DNA of 64,000 bases from Xanthomarina sp. F1114 (GTDB lineage Bacteria; Bacteroidota; Bacteroidia; Flavobacteriales; Flavobacteriaceae). The stretch's first letter is position 1. Each line of letters begins with the position of its first letter. The notes beneath the pieces were generated by a model. The model was given only the letters and a program-made list of their open reading frames with translations, was not told where the DNA came from and did no database searches. The translations under genes and the position numbers were made by a program. The stretch spans positions 124,001 to 188,000 of the forward strand of contig NZ_JAPMLL010000004.1 in NCBI RefSeq assembly GCF_026410255.1, read 5' to 3'. Below are positions 21,814 through 42,135 of this stretch, piece by piece.

Positions 21814-22143
21814 ATGGGAAAAGAGAGTAGTACATTATTAGGAATTTTGGCAGGTACAGCCATAGGAGCAACATTAGGAATCTTATTTGCACCAGATAAA
21901 GGTTCTAATACAAGACAAAGAATAGCGGATGAAGCTGCATCGGTTAGAGATAGAGTGTCTGATGAAGCTCATCATTTAAGAGATAAAGTAGCTCATTCAG
22001 TATCTAACAAAAAGGAAACCTTAGACGATCAATTGGAAGATATTGTTAGTAATGTGAGTCATAAAACTGAAGATGTGATTACCTCCTTGGAAAAAACTCT
22101 AAAGGATCTTAAAGCCAAAAATAAAAAGTATCAAAAATCTTAA
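21814..22143 (+). CDS. YtxH-domain stress protein, cassette copy 1
   Basis: The 109-residue protein has a glycine-rich hydrophobic N-terminus (LLGILAGTAIGATLGILFAPDKGSNTRQRI pattern, residues 7-36), the YtxH signature. An amphipathic charged helix to the end has DEAASVRDRVSDEAHHLRDK-type repeats. YtxH proteins are associated with general stress in Firmicutes and are common in Bacteroidota. It starts the first YtxH-holin-small protein cassette, five bases before the next gene. A paralogue lies at 40107-40439 with the same neighbours. An inverted repeat GATGAC/GTCATC (21688-21705) lies about 110 bases upstream. Confidence 0.9.
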   Translation: MGKESSTLLGILAGTAIGATLGILFAPDKGSNTRQRIADEAASVRDRVSDEAHHLRDKVAHSVSNKKETLDDQLEDIVSNVSHKTEDVITSLEKTLKDLKAKNKKYQKS

Positions 22144-22148
22144 TTTGA

Positions 22149-22499
22149 ATGAATTTTTTTGAATCCATAAACGATACATCTGGTAAAATGGGAGATGCAG
22201 GAGAGACTTATTTAAAAAAATCTCAAGAGTATTTTAAACTAAAGGTCTTTCAGCAAATTACGGCTTCTATTAGTTTAGTAACTAAAGTGCTTATTATTGG
22301 AGGATTGCTATTTATTGGCTTAATTTTCTCCGCTTTTGCTTTAGCCTTGGCAATAGGACAATGGTTAGGAGACTTAGCTTTAGGCTACTTAATTGTTGCT
22401 TTAATCTTTTTAATTACTACAGTTATAGTTTATTATAAGAGACAGTTTATAAATAAAATAATTATAAAAAGCTTATCATCTAAATTTTTCGACTCGTAA
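22149..22499 (+). CDS. Holin-superfamily (Actinobacteriophage holin III-like) membrane protein, cassette copy 1
   Basis: The 116-residue protein has an amphipathic N-terminus (about 1-45), two membrane segments (about 48-72 and 78-97) and a basic C-terminus. This is the architecture called 'phage holin family' in many genomes, but the protein is chromosomal and no phage genes are near. It follows ytxH by five bases and is surely co-transcribed. Its paralogue is at 40443-40790 (shared core VFQQITASISLVTKVLIIGG / IFQQLTLSVSMVTKLVVISA). A membrane-stress role is inference. Confidence 0.85.
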   Translation: MNFFESINDTSGKMGDAGETYLKKSQEYFKLKVFQQITASISLVTKVLIIGGLLFIGLIFSAFALALAIGQWLGDLALGYLIVALIFLITTVIVYYKRQFINKIIIKSLSSKFFDS

Positions 22500-22687
22500 T
22501 TTATCTAACATCTTTTGCTCTCCTTAAAAAAAGGAAAAACGAAAGGTAGTTATACCAAATTAGAAATTGGAGCACAAGTTAGCACACGAACGACGGTTTT
22601 TTTAGTATTTAAACTAAAACAGTTACCAATGTATGTTGTGCTTATGTTAAGTTGAAATATAATAGATAAAAAACAATAGAAAGAACT

Positions 22688-22888
22688 ATGAAACAGTATC
22701 AATCTTTTGAAGACATAGAAAGAGAATTAAAGCATTTAGACTTAGAGCGGAAAATAGCGTGGGAAGAAATGAAACTTTTAAAAAGTGAATTTCAAGATGA
22801 TTTAAAACCTGCAAATTGGGTGCAATTAGCGCTTAAAATAGCCGGGAAGTATGGCTTGTTTTTAATTTCTAAAAGATTTTTTAAGTAA
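22688..22888 (+). CDS. Small charged protein, cassette copy 1
   Basis: The 66-residue protein is helical and charged (IERELKHLDLERKIAWEEMKLLKSEF, about 9-34) with a short hydrophobic C-terminal patch (GKYGLFLISKRFF). It aligns along its length with the product of 40823-41032, sharing DLxRKhAWEE and a PxNW...GKYG core. I give it no named function. In this copy it is separated from the holin-like gene by 188 bases, against 32 in the second cassette, so it may have its own promoter here. Confidence 0.8.
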   Translation: MKQYQSFEDIERELKHLDLERKIAWEEMKLLKSEFQDDLKPANWVQLALKIAGKYGLFLISKRFFK

Positions 22889-23014: not shown

Positions 23015-23548
23015 ATGAAAATTCTTAAAACATTTATGGCAGTTTGCCTTCTATTTATATCAATTGGAGTAACTGCTCAAAACGACAAGGACAAACAAGT
23101 TATTTCCGATGCTGAAAAAGCAAAAACAACTTTACTGGAAAAAGATGCCGGATTAGAAAAATTCTTAGATACATCTGCAGGATATGTTATTTTTCCAAAT
23201 GTGGGTAAGGGAGCCTTAATTATTGGTGGAGCAACTGGAAATGGCGTAGTTTATGAAAACGAACAGATTATAGGAATGTCTAAGCTAATGAATTTAAGCT
23301 TGGGATTACAAGCAGGAGGAGAGTCTCATATTGAAATTATCTTCTTTGAAACTCAAAAGGCTTTAGACGAATTTAAAGAAGGGAATTTTGAGTTTTCTGC
23401 CAGACTTTCTGCAGTTGCTGCTGATAAAGGAGTTTCTAAAGATGCTGATTATAACGATAATGTATTAGTTGTTACTATGCCTAAAGTAGGACTAATGGCA
23501 GATACTTCAGTAGGTGGACAAAAATTCACCTTTCATCCATTTAAATAA
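23015..23548 (+). CDS. SYLF (YSC84-like) lipid-binding protein, exported
   Basis: The 177-residue protein has a Sec signal peptide (about 1-22, ending in VTAQ). The YSC84/SYLF domain covers the rest: AGYVIFPNVGKGALIIGGATGNGVVYE near residue 50, and a C-terminal DTSVGGQKFTFHPF. SYLF proteins bind phosphoinositides in eukaryotes; the bacterial ligand is unknown. It is a single gene with its own terminator, lying between the stress cassette and an oxidoreductase gene. Confidence 0.9.
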   Translation: MKILKTFMAVCLLFISIGVTAQNDKDKQVISDAEKAKTTLLEKDAGLEKFLDTSAGYVIFPNVGKGALIIGGATGNGVVYENEQIIGMSKLMNLSLGLQAGGESHIEIIFFETQKALDEFKEGNFEFSARLSAVAADKGVSKDADYNDNVLVVTMPKVGLMADTSVGGQKFTFHPFK

Positions 23549-38391: not shown

Positions 38392-38544
38392 CTAAAACCA
38401 TTTAAAATATAAGCCAGAAATTATCACCGCAACAACTAATATAAAAAGTGCTATAATAATAAAAGTGGCTCCAAATTTAGTTTTCTTATCGTCTTGTAAT
38501 AAATAGTCTTCTCTTTCTGAGTTTTCGTCTTTAATAATTGGCAT
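38392..38544 (-). CDS. Small single-pass membrane protein, 50 residues
   Basis: A 50-codon frame starts at ATG 38542-38544 and stops with TAG at 38392-38394. The N-terminal half is charged (KDENSEREDYLLQDDKKTKFG, split by D and E) and the C-terminal half is one hydrophobic helix (about 26-44) ending in YFKWF. It starts 11 bases after the dehydrogenase stop on the same strand, so the two are probably co-transcribed. No family is recognised. Composition and placement support a real gene. Confidence 0.65.
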   Translation of the reverse strand: MPIIKDENSEREDYLLQDDKKTKFGATFIIIALFILVVAVIISGLYFKWF

Positions 38545-38555
38545 AGTTTTTAGTT

Positions 38556-39920
38556 TTATGAGTTAATATATACTGTTTTCTTGTTTACAAATTCATGAAT
38601 TCCTTCTTTAGAAAGCTCTCTTCCATAACCTGAAGCTTTGGTGCCTCCAAAGGGTAATCTCGGATCAGATTTTACAAGTTCGTTTATAAAAAAAGCACCA
38701 TCTTGGATTTTTAAAATTTGTTTTTTTGCTTTCGATTTGTCTCTTGTAAAGACCATTGTCCCTAAACCAAATCTTGAGTTTGTAGCTGTTTTATAAGCCT
38801 CTTCAGCATCTTTTACTTTAATTATAGCTGCAACGGGGCCAAAGGTTTCTTCATCAAAAACCGGCATTCCGGGCTTTACGTCGGTTAGAATAGTTGGAGC
38901 GAAAAATGCTTTTTCAGTTTTATTTCCTATGAGAATATTTGCTCCTTTTTTAACAGAATCATTTACTTGTTTTTGTAAAATTTCAACTAAATCTTCTCTG
39001 GCTAGAACACTTACTTCTGTAAATTCCTTAACAGGGTTTCCAACTTGTAAAGAAACTACTTTAGCTTTAAACTTCTCAAGAAACTCATCGTAAACAGATT
39101 CTTCTACTATAAAACGCTTTGCTGCAATACAGCTTTGCCCGGTATTTTGCATTCTTGCATTTACCATAGTAGCTATATGCTTATCTAAATCGGCATCTTT
39201 CAAAACAATACAAGCATTATTTCCACCTAATTCTAAAACTGCTTTTTTAAGATTATTTCCTGAAATTTTAGAAATATGTTTTCCAGCTTTTTCACTTCCT
39301 GTTAAAGAAACTGCTTTAATTCGTGGATCGGCAATGAGGTTTTCAACCTGCTCATGATTAATAATAAGGGATTGAAAACAACCTTCAGGAAAACCGCTGT
39401 CTAGAAATAAATCTTGAATGGCTAAAGCACAGCCTGTAACATTACTAGCGTGTTTTAATAATGCCGTGTTTCCTGCAGTTAATGTTGGAATTGCAAACCT
39501 AAGCACTTGCCAAAATGGATAATTCCAAGGCATAACGGCTAAAATGCATCCCAACGGATCATAACTTATAAAACTTTCTTTGGCGTCTGTTTCTATAAGT
39601 TCGTCTGCTAAAAATTGATCTGCATTTTTAGCGTAAAAATCACTTAAAAACACACATTTATCAATTTCTGCTAAACTTTGTGAAATAGGTTTTCCCATTT
39701 CTTCTGTCATTAAAGCAGCATAATGTTGTTTGTGTTTAATAAGATTCTTGGATAGGTTTTTTAGCAATTTAGTTCTGTGAGAAATAGCTTCTTCACTCCA
39801 AGTATTAAACACTGTTTCCGACCGCTTTAAATAAGTCTCTATAGTAGATTTAGAAAACTGGTTATAGCTTTTAATCTCTTTTCCCGTATAGGGATTTATT
39901 GTTTTAATTTTAGTTGACAT
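38556..39920 (-). CDS. NAD(P)-dependent succinate-semialdehyde dehydrogenase-like aldehyde dehydrogenase
   Basis: The product has 454 residues from ATG 39918-39920 (MSTKIKTINPYTG); a longer reading adds 32 residues from upstream sequence and was rejected. The motifs are the nucleophile C264 in NTGQSCIAAKR, the general base E230 in VLELGGNN, and PWNYPFWQ near residue 131 for NAD(P). DEETFGPVAAI also matches this class. The family oxidises short-chain semialdehydes; substrate assignment is by family only. It is divergent from the second YtxH gene and in line with a small membrane-protein gene. Confidence 0.9.
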   Translation of the reverse strand: MSTKIKTINPYTGKEIKSYNQFSKSTIETYLKRSETVFNTWSEEAISHRTKLLKNLSKNLIKHKQHYAALMTEEMGKPISQSLAEIDKCVFLSDFYAKNADQFLADELIETDAKESFISYDPLGCILAVMPWNYPFWQVLRFAIPTLTAGNTALLKHASNVTGCALAIQDLFLDSGFPEGCFQSLIINHEQVENLIADPRIKAVSLTGSEKAGKHISKISGNNLKKAVLELGGNNACIVLKDADLDKHIATMVNARMQNTGQSCIAAKRFIVEESVYDEFLEKFKAKVVSLQVGNPVKEFTEVSVLAREDLVEILQKQVNDSVKKGANILIGNKTEKAFFAPTILTDVKPGMPVFDEETFGPVAAIIKVKDAEEAYKTATNSRFGLGTMVFTRDKSKAKKQILKIQDGAFFINELVKSDPRLPFGGTKASGYGRELSKEGIHEFVNKKTVYINS

Positions 39921-40106
39921 AATAAAGTATTTATTTAAATATATGGATTGTTTAGATTGTAGTTTGCCGTATTCCATAAAACAATGAACTCTTTTACCTA
40001 TATGGGTTTCGGTCAAGAATTTAATCTTTAGCGTTAATGAACTCCCTCCATTTGTTGGATATTTGTAATAGTAAAAAAGAAGTTTAACTAAAAAGTATAA
40101 ATTATT

Positions 40107-40439
40107 ATGAATAATAACGGAAGTACAGCATTAGGAGTTTTAGCAGGAGCATCCCTTGGGGCGGTTCTAGGAATTTTATTTGCTCCAGATAAAGGAAGTG
40201 TAACCAGACAAAGAATTGCAGATCAAGCAGAATTGCAAAAAGATAGATTATCATCTTCAGCGTCTGATATTAGAGATAAAATTGCTCATACAGTAAGTTC
40301 TGAAACTCATAATTTAGAAGATAGAATGGAATCTATTGTCTCTGACGCTAGTTATAAAGCCGAGGATGTTATCTCCACTTTAGAAGCTAAATTAAAAGAA
40401 TTAAAAGCAAAGAATAAGAAGTTTCAAAAAGCATCATAA
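40107..40439 (+). CDS. YtxH-domain stress protein, cassette copy 2
   Basis: The 110-residue protein is a clear paralogue of the product of 21814-22143: the same GxxxGAxLGxxLGILFAPDKGSxTRQRIAD N-terminal pattern (about 8-39), an amphipathic middle, and a C-terminus ELKAKNKKFQKA. It heads the second cassette, three bases before the holin-like gene. The upstream 186 bases are shared with the divergent dehydrogenase. Confidence 0.9.
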   Translation: MNNNGSTALGVLAGASLGAVLGILFAPDKGSVTRQRIADQAELQKDRLSSSASDIRDKIAHTVSSETHNLEDRMESIVSDASYKAEDVISTLEAKLKELKAKNKKFQKAS

Positions 40440-40442
40440 AAC

Positions 40443-40790
40443 ATGAACCTATTTAATTCTATAGGAGAAACTACAGACAAAGCTGCAGATATAGGTGAGA
40501 CATATTTTAAATCGTCTCACCAATATCTTAAGCTAAAAATATTTCAACAATTAACTTTGTCCGTTAGTATGGTTACAAAGTTGGTTGTAATAAGTGCTTT
40601 TCTATTTCTTGGAATTATATTTTGCGCTGTTGCTGCAGCTTTAGCTATTGGAGATGCTTTAGAAAACCCTTTATTAGGTTTTTTAATAGTAGGTGTTTTC
40701 TTTATGCTTATTGCTATTTTAATATATGTAGGTAGAGGTGCTATCAATAGAATAGTGATACAAAAAATTGGAGATAAGTTCTTCTCTTAG
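40443..40790 (+). CDS. Holin-superfamily membrane protein, cassette copy 2
   Basis: The 115-residue protein matches the product of 22149-22499 in length and topology: an amphipathic N-terminus (ETYFKSSHQYLKLKIFQQL), two membrane segments (about 45-70, 76-97) and a short C-terminal helix. It is three bases after ytxH copy 2 and 32 bases before the small protein gene. A phage origin is not supported by the context. Confidence 0.85.
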   Translation: MNLFNSIGETTDKAADIGETYFKSSHQYLKLKIFQQLTLSVSMVTKLVVISAFLFLGIIFCAVAAALAIGDALENPLLGFLIVGVFFMLIAILIYVGRGAINRIVIQKIGDKFFS

Positions 40791-40822
40791 AAACTCAATC
40801 TATAAACAATTACTAAAATTAT

Positions 40823-41032
40823 ATGAAACCATCCTATACAAATTTTGATCAGATTGAAAACGATTTAAAACTTCTCGATCTTCAACGTAAAGTTGCATGG
40901 GAAGAATTAAAGGTGGTAAAAACGGAGTTTAAAGAAGAAATCAATCCTTTAAACTGGATAGAAAACTTTTTAAGTCGAACTGGGAAATATGGAGTATTTG
41001 TATTCTTAAGAAAACTTTTATTAAAAAAATAG
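40823..41032 (+). CDS. Small charged protein, cassette copy 2
   Basis: The 69-residue protein aligns with the product of 22688-22888 (FDQIENDLKLLDLQRKVAWEELK at about 8-30, INPLNWIENF and GKYGVFVFL). It has a basic hydrophobic C-terminus that could contact membrane or the YtxH/holin-like pair. Here it lies 32 bases after the holin-like gene, so the three genes form one transcript closed by the hairpin at 41119-41168. Confidence 0.83.
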   Translation: MKPSYTNFDQIENDLKLLDLQRKVAWEELKVVKTEFKEEINPLNWIENFLSRTGKYGVFVFLRKLLLKK

Positions 41033-41294: not shown

Positions 41295-41744
41295 ATGAAC
41301 TCATACACAAAAGAAGTAGGAAATAAGTTAAACGCCTTACTAGAAAAAAATTACGATGCTGAAAAAGGATTTAAAAAAGCTGCAGAACATACAGATCATA
41401 CAGCTTTAAAAAACTTTTTTAACCGTAAAGCGGCAGAACGATACGACTTTGGACATCAGTTAAAATCTGAAATTAAAAATTACGGTGAAGAACCGGAGAA
41501 TAATGGAAGCGTTACTGGTGCTGCACATAGAACATGGATGGATGTGAAAGCTGTTTTTTCTGCAGATAATGAAGAGTCTATGTTAGAAGAGGCAATTAGA
41601 GGCGAAAAGGCTTCAGTTGAAGAATATAACGAAGTTTTAAACGAAACTAATTTACCTTCGTCTACAAGAAATATTGTAATGAATCAGAAAAACACTATTT
41701 CGCAAGAACTTAACACCATTAAACGTCTGGAGGATCTAAAATAA
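41295..41744 (+). CDS. DUF2383/PA2169-family four-helix bundle protein
   Basis: The 149-residue protein is helical throughout and matches the PA2169 ferritin-like family: LNALLEKNYDAEKGFKKAAEHTDHTALKNFFNRKAAER (about 12-49) and EDAxxxxR-type segments including LEEAIRGEKASVEEYNEVL. The metal ligands of ferritin are only partly present, so iron storage is not implied. It is frequent in stress regions. Single gene with a terminator. Confidence 0.9.
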   Translation: MNSYTKEVGNKLNALLEKNYDAEKGFKKAAEHTDHTALKNFFNRKAAERYDFGHQLKSEIKNYGEEPENNGSVTGAAHRTWMDVKAVFSADNEESMLEEAIRGEKASVEEYNEVLNETNLPSSTRNIVMNQKNTISQELNTIKRLEDLK

Positions 41745-41973: not shown

Positions 41974-42135
41974 ATGTTACGTTGGACAATCACATTTATT
42001 ATAATTGCTATAATCGCCGGAATTTTAGGTTTTGGTGGTATTGCTGGAGCAGCAGCCGGAATTGCTAAAATATTATTTTTCATATTTATCGTTCTATTTA
42101 TTATTTCGCTATTTATGGGACGTAAAAAAGTATAA
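41974..42135 (+). CDS. DUF1328-like (YtjA) small membrane protein
   Basis: A 53-residue frame runs from ATG 41974 to TAA 42133-42135. The sequence is [20 protein letters not shown], then a Gly/Ala-rich turn ([13 protein letters not shown]) and a second hydrophobic helix ([16 protein letters not shown]) ending in RKK. This matches the DUF1328 layout of two membrane helices and [14 protein letters not shown] core. The function is unknown. It is likely linked to the lipoprotein gene 40 bases downstream. Confidence 0.87.

Follow-up and report, generated by a model that had tools for sequence, protein, structure and literature searches.

Two copies of one three-gene set lie in the window, by which we mean the whole stretch of 64,000 nucleotides of Xanthomarina sp. 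F1114 DNA that was analysed. Our preferred reading, held with moderate confidence, is that each triplet forms one operon and encodes a small inner-membrane module that would work like YqjD-YqjE-YqjK of Escherichia coli, by the mechanism set out below. The genes are labelled Y (YtxH, PF12732), H (PF07332, the Holin-X/YqjE family) and S (DUF6327, PF19852). An inner-membrane module is proposed because H is constant, the anchored helix is exchangeable and the third gene is variable, as in the PA3040-PA3042 operon of Pseudomonas aeruginosa. The first-pass annotation had reported two triplets with the same gene types in the same order and orientation, at 21814-22888 and 40107-41032, and the coordinates, frames and strand all proved to be exact (Table 1).

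Table 1. Genes of the two triplets in the window, and the spacer within copy 1
Feature	Product and length	Position in window	Strand	Family match or remark
Copy 1 Y	YtxH, 109 aa	21814-22143	+	PF12732, 73.2 bits
Copy 1 H	YqjE/Holin-X-like membrane protein, 116 aa	22149-22499	+	PF07332, 24.6 bits
H1-S1 spacer	188 bp	22500-22687	none	3-bp gap in copy 1 of the sister species
Copy 1 S	Small DUF6327 protein, 66 aa	22688-22888	+	PF19852, 25.5 bits
Copy 2 Y	YtxH, 110 aa	40107-40439	+	PF12732, 59.7 bits
Copy 2 H	YqjE/Holin-X-like, 115 aa	40443-40790	+	PF07332, 27.7 bits
Copy 2 S	DUF6327-like, 69 aa	40823-41032	+	PF19852, 23.5 bits

The similarity between the copies, which had also been noted at first pass, extends to all three genes and is far above that of shuffled sequences. 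In ungapped local alignments, each compared with 500 shuffles, Y1 and Y2 are identical at 65 of 109 positions (60 %; score 335, best shuffle 54), H1 and H2 at 56 of 114 (49 %; score 301, best shuffle 60), and S1 and S2 at 28 of 60 (47 %; score 177, best shuffle 54). Both Y copies exceed the curated cut-off for PF12732 (37.5 bits). Both H copies are below the curated cut-off for PF07332, Phage_holin_3_6 (28.4 bits), H2 by 0.7 bits. The cut-off for PF19852 is 24.1 bits, with S1 above it and S2 below. Homology of H to PF07332 is likely, even with the window copies under the cut-off, because 23 of the 30 aligned H members, both window copies included, match PF07332 at E ≤0.001 and one relative (L029) reaches 36.8 bits. 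The H alignment leaves out one of 31 loci, L032, where no H frame was obtained. For S, 21 of the 31 aligned members match PF19852 at E ≤0.001. The whole genome contains two matches to PF07332 and two to PF19852 at E ≤0.001, and three YtxH matches, of which two are above the cut-off and one is weak and falls in a 526-codon frame.

The H-S gap is 188 bp in copy 1 against 32 bp in copy 2. As copy 1 of a sister species in the same genus (G035) has a gap of 3 bp, the copy 1 gap is about 185 bp longer here. The spacer was considered as a repeat element and this was rejected, as no other match in the genome was longer than 34 bases. Relative to the sister species, dN/dS for the six window genes is 0.036 to 0.244, with dS (1.06 to 1.66) near saturation, and all six genes are under purifying selection. 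Close to the triplets are genes for a DUF2383/PA2169-type four-helix protein (41295-41744), a DUF1328 protein (41974-42135) and a SYLF-domain protein (23015-23548); the family of the DUF2383-like neighbour was seen by eye at 14 of 77 named loci. Found 5' of copy 2 are a 50-aa protein (38392-38544) and an aldehyde-dehydrogenase-like protein (38556-40016). The surroundings of copy 2 look conserved, because the families of both these upstream neighbours recur (by eye, at 18 and 23, respectively, of 77 named loci).

The sister species also contains both triplet copies, about 17 kb apart. In global alignments, the Y, H and S proteins of copy 1 are 91, 75 and 80 % identical to those of copy 1 in the sister species, and for copy 2 the corresponding values are 84, 73 and 62 %. 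The same alignments give 61, 50 and 47 % between copies 1 and 2 of the window. Since each copy is closer to its counterpart in G035 than to the other copy, the sequences place the duplication before the genus Xanthomarina; support for its precise depth is weak. A midpoint-rooted tree was built from 117 concatenated triplets (115 of them distinct). In it, copy 1 is nearest to copy 1 of the sister species and then to L058, L055 and L059, copy 2 is nearest to copy 2 of the sister species and then to L052, and the common ancestor of both copies covers 20 tips, with support of 0.66. Gene order was kept after the duplication, as had been proposed at first pass, but with copies older than the genus the event is not a recent one.

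Linkage was examined in 80 genomes of the family Flavobacteriaceae, 77 of them of high quality. H was found in 43 genomes (52 rows), Y in 46 (65 rows) and S in 40 (48 rows), and 34 of the 80 had none of the three. Y is directly 5' of H on the same strand for all 52 H, and S is directly 3' of H for 48 of the 52, the remaining four H having no detected S. All 48 S are inside full Y-H-S triplets and none was found apart from H. The linkage of Y, H and S in the family is far above chance. Counted by place, two triplets are present in eight of the 80 genomes, including G060. The second triplet of G060 (L133) has stops inside the H frame and open Y and S frames, and stops were also seen in the H frame of a second copy at G209:C2:553374-553676.

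A Y profile was also used to scan GTDB and retrieved at least 442 related stretches. Among the best 80 named Y loci, 77 have complete triplets, in a scan that favours triplets and close relatives, its profile being built on the Y genes of triplets; L086, L090 and L124 are without H and S. In these 77 triplets, drawn from the best 80 of at least 442, the Y-H gaps are -20 to 40 nt and the H-S gaps -20 to 36 nt, save two of 90 and 161 nt. The commonest protein family among non-triplet neighbours was present at 39 of the 77 loci. Over the 117 triplets (115 distinct), the pairwise distances of the three genes show correlations of 0.73-0.74, to which relatedness alone contributes in part. The linkage lends good support to the suggestion of a joint action of the three products.

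Outside the family the picture differs from gene to gene. H was found in 99 of 158 genomes of the phylum and YtxH, which is far more widespread, in 154, and the S profile found S in 13 of the 158, every one in the same family. Among the matches listed, YtxH adjoins every H row within the order (21 of 21 in the family and 2 of 2 in a second family), and the proportion falls to 10 of 20 for the remainder of the class and to none of 65 beyond the class, where 15 of the 65 come from genomes without YtxH among the matches listed. These adjacency counts use 96 listed rows from genomes with H. The possibility, raised in the first-pass annotation, that the genes would be unlinked in most genomes does not hold for the family, but the Y-H link looks looser outside it.

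Loci were read around H for the best 30 of the 108 H rows, and the 29 other than our own (L152-L180) include four from outside the class (L175, L176, L179 and L180). In all 29, which were observed without a control set, a frame of 67 to 166 codons on the same strand overlaps the end of H or begins no more than 17 nt past it. YtxH is 5' of H at 23 of the 29. At L168 a shorter YtxH-like frame is found there (PF12732, 30.1 bits, below the cut-off), and at L169 and L176 no first gene was seen 5' of H. L175, L179 and L180 belong to a single family outside the class, and their first genes encode proteins of 70-71 aa with a C-terminal Gly zipper. The two of these that were scanned gave E values of 1.1e-3 and 5.8e-5 for DUF883_C, below the cut-off, and comparison of these first genes with E. 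coli YqjD gave an hhalign value of 81.7 over 29 columns. At all four loci from outside the class a small third gene still accompanies H and YtxH does not, and in three of the four the first gene is DUF883/YqjD-like. At L164, L165, L166 and L170, a 50-residue hydrophobic protein is encoded directly 5' of Y, possibly as the fourth member of a second triplet type.

Judged by profile comparisons, the third gene is probably older in the class, with S as one of its branches and not an invention of the family. The S profile matched seven third genes, three from the divergent second type in the same family and four from another family of the class, with a probability of 95.9 (E 5e-9, 67 columns); one of the seven, from L166, was a weak match to S in a single search (3e-4). 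The profile of the seven matched five third genes from two more families at 93.7, but a direct comparison of the S profile with those five gave 38.9. In control comparisons of the S or seven-gene profile with the Y and H profiles, all values were below 1. Third genes from the family with DUF883-like first genes were rejected as relatives of S (2.5 in profile comparison). Those of L163, L167 and L174, from one other family of the class, share an identical GIPPDSETY tail. In the structure model of S2, helices are predicted at 8-39 and 42-68 (mean pLDDT 81.9, pTM 0.43). The third protein had been put down at first pass as one of no described function; a search for DUF6327 by name found nothing in the open-licence literature, although a family name does exist.

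Y has one transmembrane-like stretch near the N-terminus (about residues 8-26), which contains the invariant glycines G14, G18 and G22 at a spacing of four (a Gly zipper). This is followed by a long amphipathic helix of about 80 residues with 11-residue periodicity. The hydrophobic moment, taken over 119 regions, has its peak at 98.5 degrees, equal to 3.655 residues per turn and near 11/3; the peak value is 0.267 against a shuffle maximum of 0.12. The spacing from the AP[DE]KG-type to the LExKLxxLK-type motif is 50 in 4, 61 in 102 and 72 in 8 of 117 sequences (114 of the 117 in total, the other three having 62, 63 and 79), taken from 121 distinct Y that are related and so not independent. The length of Y thus varies by one 11-residue unit less and one unit more. 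We take this as the mark of a putative hendecad helix with its ends kept in register, lying along the surface of the membrane or within a right-handed coiled coil. Y1 matches Apolipoprotein (PF01442) with E 3e-6 and 27.5 bits, far below the cut-off of 90.

From the weak family matches and a structure model, H is predicted to be kin to PF07332 and to fold as a helical hairpin whose N-terminal helix is long. The H2 model has helices at 2-73, 76-96 and 98-113 (mean pLDDT 84.1, pTM 0.52). A Foldseek search with the model returned no PDB matches at E ≤10, and this says little because a helical hairpin is a poor query. A membrane-associated complex had been suggested at first pass. Membrane association agrees with the transmembrane-like stretches of Y and H; S has none.

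An exact TTAAC-N6-TTAAC direct repeat is present upstream of Y in 26 of 95 distinct regions and in none of 373 intergenic controls from the same loci (Fisher P 5e-20, a figure for a motif found in the same 95 regions and inflated by related species). It starts 65-86 nt 5' of Y, and the 26 loci lie between L084 and L148. TTAAC followed 19-23 nt on by TA[ATC]CTTT was found in 21 of the 95 upstream regions and 2 of the 373 controls. The repeat is absent upstream of both window copies and both copies in the sister species. Its 11-bp direct period presumably points to a regulator of the OmpR/PhoB type. When a stricter pattern was searched for in eight genomes, G028, G036, G064 and G067 each had one match at the triplet, in each case the sole TTAACC[CG]GTTRTTAAC form in that genome, and the matches in the other four were away from the triplet. 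No wider regulon is claimed, because TTAACNNNTTRTTAAC had 18 matches in eight genomes against 14 for the reversed pattern. A reading of the repeat as a Pho box was dropped, a literature search having found no paper with a flavobacterial box in its title. TAnnTTTG alone is not enriched upstream (34 of 95 regions against 138 of 373 controls), and for this reason no general promoter claim is made.

We infer a physical complex of the three products, together with its location and timing, as follows. H would oligomerise in the inner membrane and form a platform. The anchor of Y would pack on H, with the Y helix along the cytoplasmic face, and S, as two helices with no transmembrane stretch, would dock peripherally. 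During envelope stress or growth arrest, the set would stabilise the membrane surface and slow growth, and the two paralogous sets might serve two conditions. A stress role is suggested by analogy with the systems considered below.

Three other explanations were weighed. It is unlikely that Y is a ribosome tether like YqjD, its cytoplasmic helix binding idle ribosomes and keeping them on the membrane during stationary phase. The operon logic and the parts, an anchored helix and a YqjE-type protein, are the same, the periodicities of the Y and YqjD helices peak at 99 and 97.5 degrees, both near 11/3, and YqjD is described in the cited passages as a membrane ribosome binder found with stationary-phase ribosomes at the inner membrane, its N-terminal region binding the 30S subunit in 70S and 100S ribosomes (PMC10746276; PMC10502375). 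However, the match between Y and E. coli YqjD covers only a 21-residue Gly-zipper stretch, and the change of length in 11-residue steps would point to a surface or coiled-coil constraint and not to a ribosome-binding motif.

It is quite unlikely that the set is held together by co-regulation only, as three small envelope proteins produced together in one condition and making no mutual contact. Ten of the 65 Y rows in the 80 family genomes are without H, and S has no transmembrane-like stretch, which are points for this explanation. Against it stand the presence of every S beside H, the fixed Y-H-S order, the correlated divergence of the three genes and the occurrence of second copies as triplets.

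Least probable of the three is growth control, with H as a membrane protein that inhibits growth in the manner of a holin or toxin and is restrained or tuned by Y and S. In its favour, PF07332 takes its name from holins, overproduction of YqjE is described in the cited passage as giving slower growth and higher persistence (PMC4738310), and Y is 5' of all H in the family. Against it, outside the class H occurs with no adjoining YtxH among the matches listed, overexpression of the P. aeruginosa gene PA3041 did not inhibit growth as described in the cited passage (PMC11302039), and the Foldseek search gave no viral matches at E ≤0.001 (19 viral matches in all, best E 1.6, for a hairpin that is a weak query). 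Set beside a phage holin proper, H shows conserved chromosomal linkage to YtxH.

Beside the preferred reading, a single-operon inner-membrane module, we put forward a wider and more tentative proposal. Flavobacteria and their relatives may have their own version of a widespread YqjE-hairpin module, with the first part swapped for a helix anchored at the opposite end. That helix would be a rod built in 11-residue units with its ends in register, the third protein would be an old, fast-evolving docking subunit, and in many genera a tandem-repeat operator would be dedicated to the set. Flavobacterium johnsoniae is a tractable laboratory species in which the arrangement could be put to the test, through the 11-residue length rule and the conserved upstream repeat, if the triplet is present in it.

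Searches of the open-licence literature found no description of a Y-H-S triplet, nor of YtxH with DUF883. Y may be likened to hendecad helices of the LEA and apolipoprotein type. It shares with them the 11/3 periodicity and the change of length by whole units, and differs in having a transmembrane-like Gly-zipper anchor; no homology is claimed. Y is in the same Pfam family, PF12732, as YtxH of Bacillus subtilis. However, in the gene list of a SigB-regulon paper the companions named with ytxH are ytxG and ytxJ, and not a PF07332 gene (PMC7824861). A YtxH of Elizabethkingia is described, in the passage cited, as a major whole-cell MALDI peak of 12.1 kDa (PMC11878014). The Y of the triplet at L177, from the same order, computes to 12.46 kDa without Met, and no link with the peak is claimed.

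The closest comparison is with yqjD, yqjE and yqjK of the yqjCDEK operon of E. coli, which have the same order and are separated by 2 nt and then overlap by 11 nt. Both sets comprise three genes in the same order on one strand with tight spacing, the 188 bp between H and S in window copy 1 aside. YqjE matches PF07332, as do relatives of H, the first gene in each case encodes an amphipathic helix with a Gly-zipper anchor, and YqjK, like S, is small and has no transmembrane-like window. A direct comparison of H with the single YqjE sequence gave an hhalign probability of 0.2. In contrast to Y, with its YtxH domain and N-terminal anchor, YqjD is a DUF883 protein with a C-terminal anchor, and YqjK belongs to PF13997, to which S is unrelated by profile (hhalign probability 0.2). 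By analogy, the set would thus work like yqjD-yqjE-yqjK, but it is not a member of that operon type, because its first gene is not DUF883 and its third is not related to YqjK. As described in the cited passages, yqjC and yqjD have RpoS-dependent promoters and are repressed by CsrA, and YqjE and YqjK have no known function (PMC10746276; PMC10502375).

PA3040-PA3042 of P. aeruginosa, likened here by description, is likewise a three-gene operon with a YqjE-like protein, and differs from the window set in that its first gene is DUF883 and its third has no recognised domain. According to the cited passages, envelope stress and stationary phase both induce this operon, which comprises a YqjD-like gene, a YqjE-like gene and a third gene; colony form was altered by overexpression of the whole operon and not of single genes, and growth of PAO1 was unaffected; the first two genes are in nearly all of 113 Pseudomonas genomes and the third is in two (PMC11302039). 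Operons of the YqjD/YqjE type are stress-linked and unexplained, and the triplets add a second phylum with a similar linked set, in which the first protein differs and the third is apparently unrelated. The comparison separates the constant parts, namely the PF07332 hairpin, an anchored amphipathic helix and a small partner, from those that vary.
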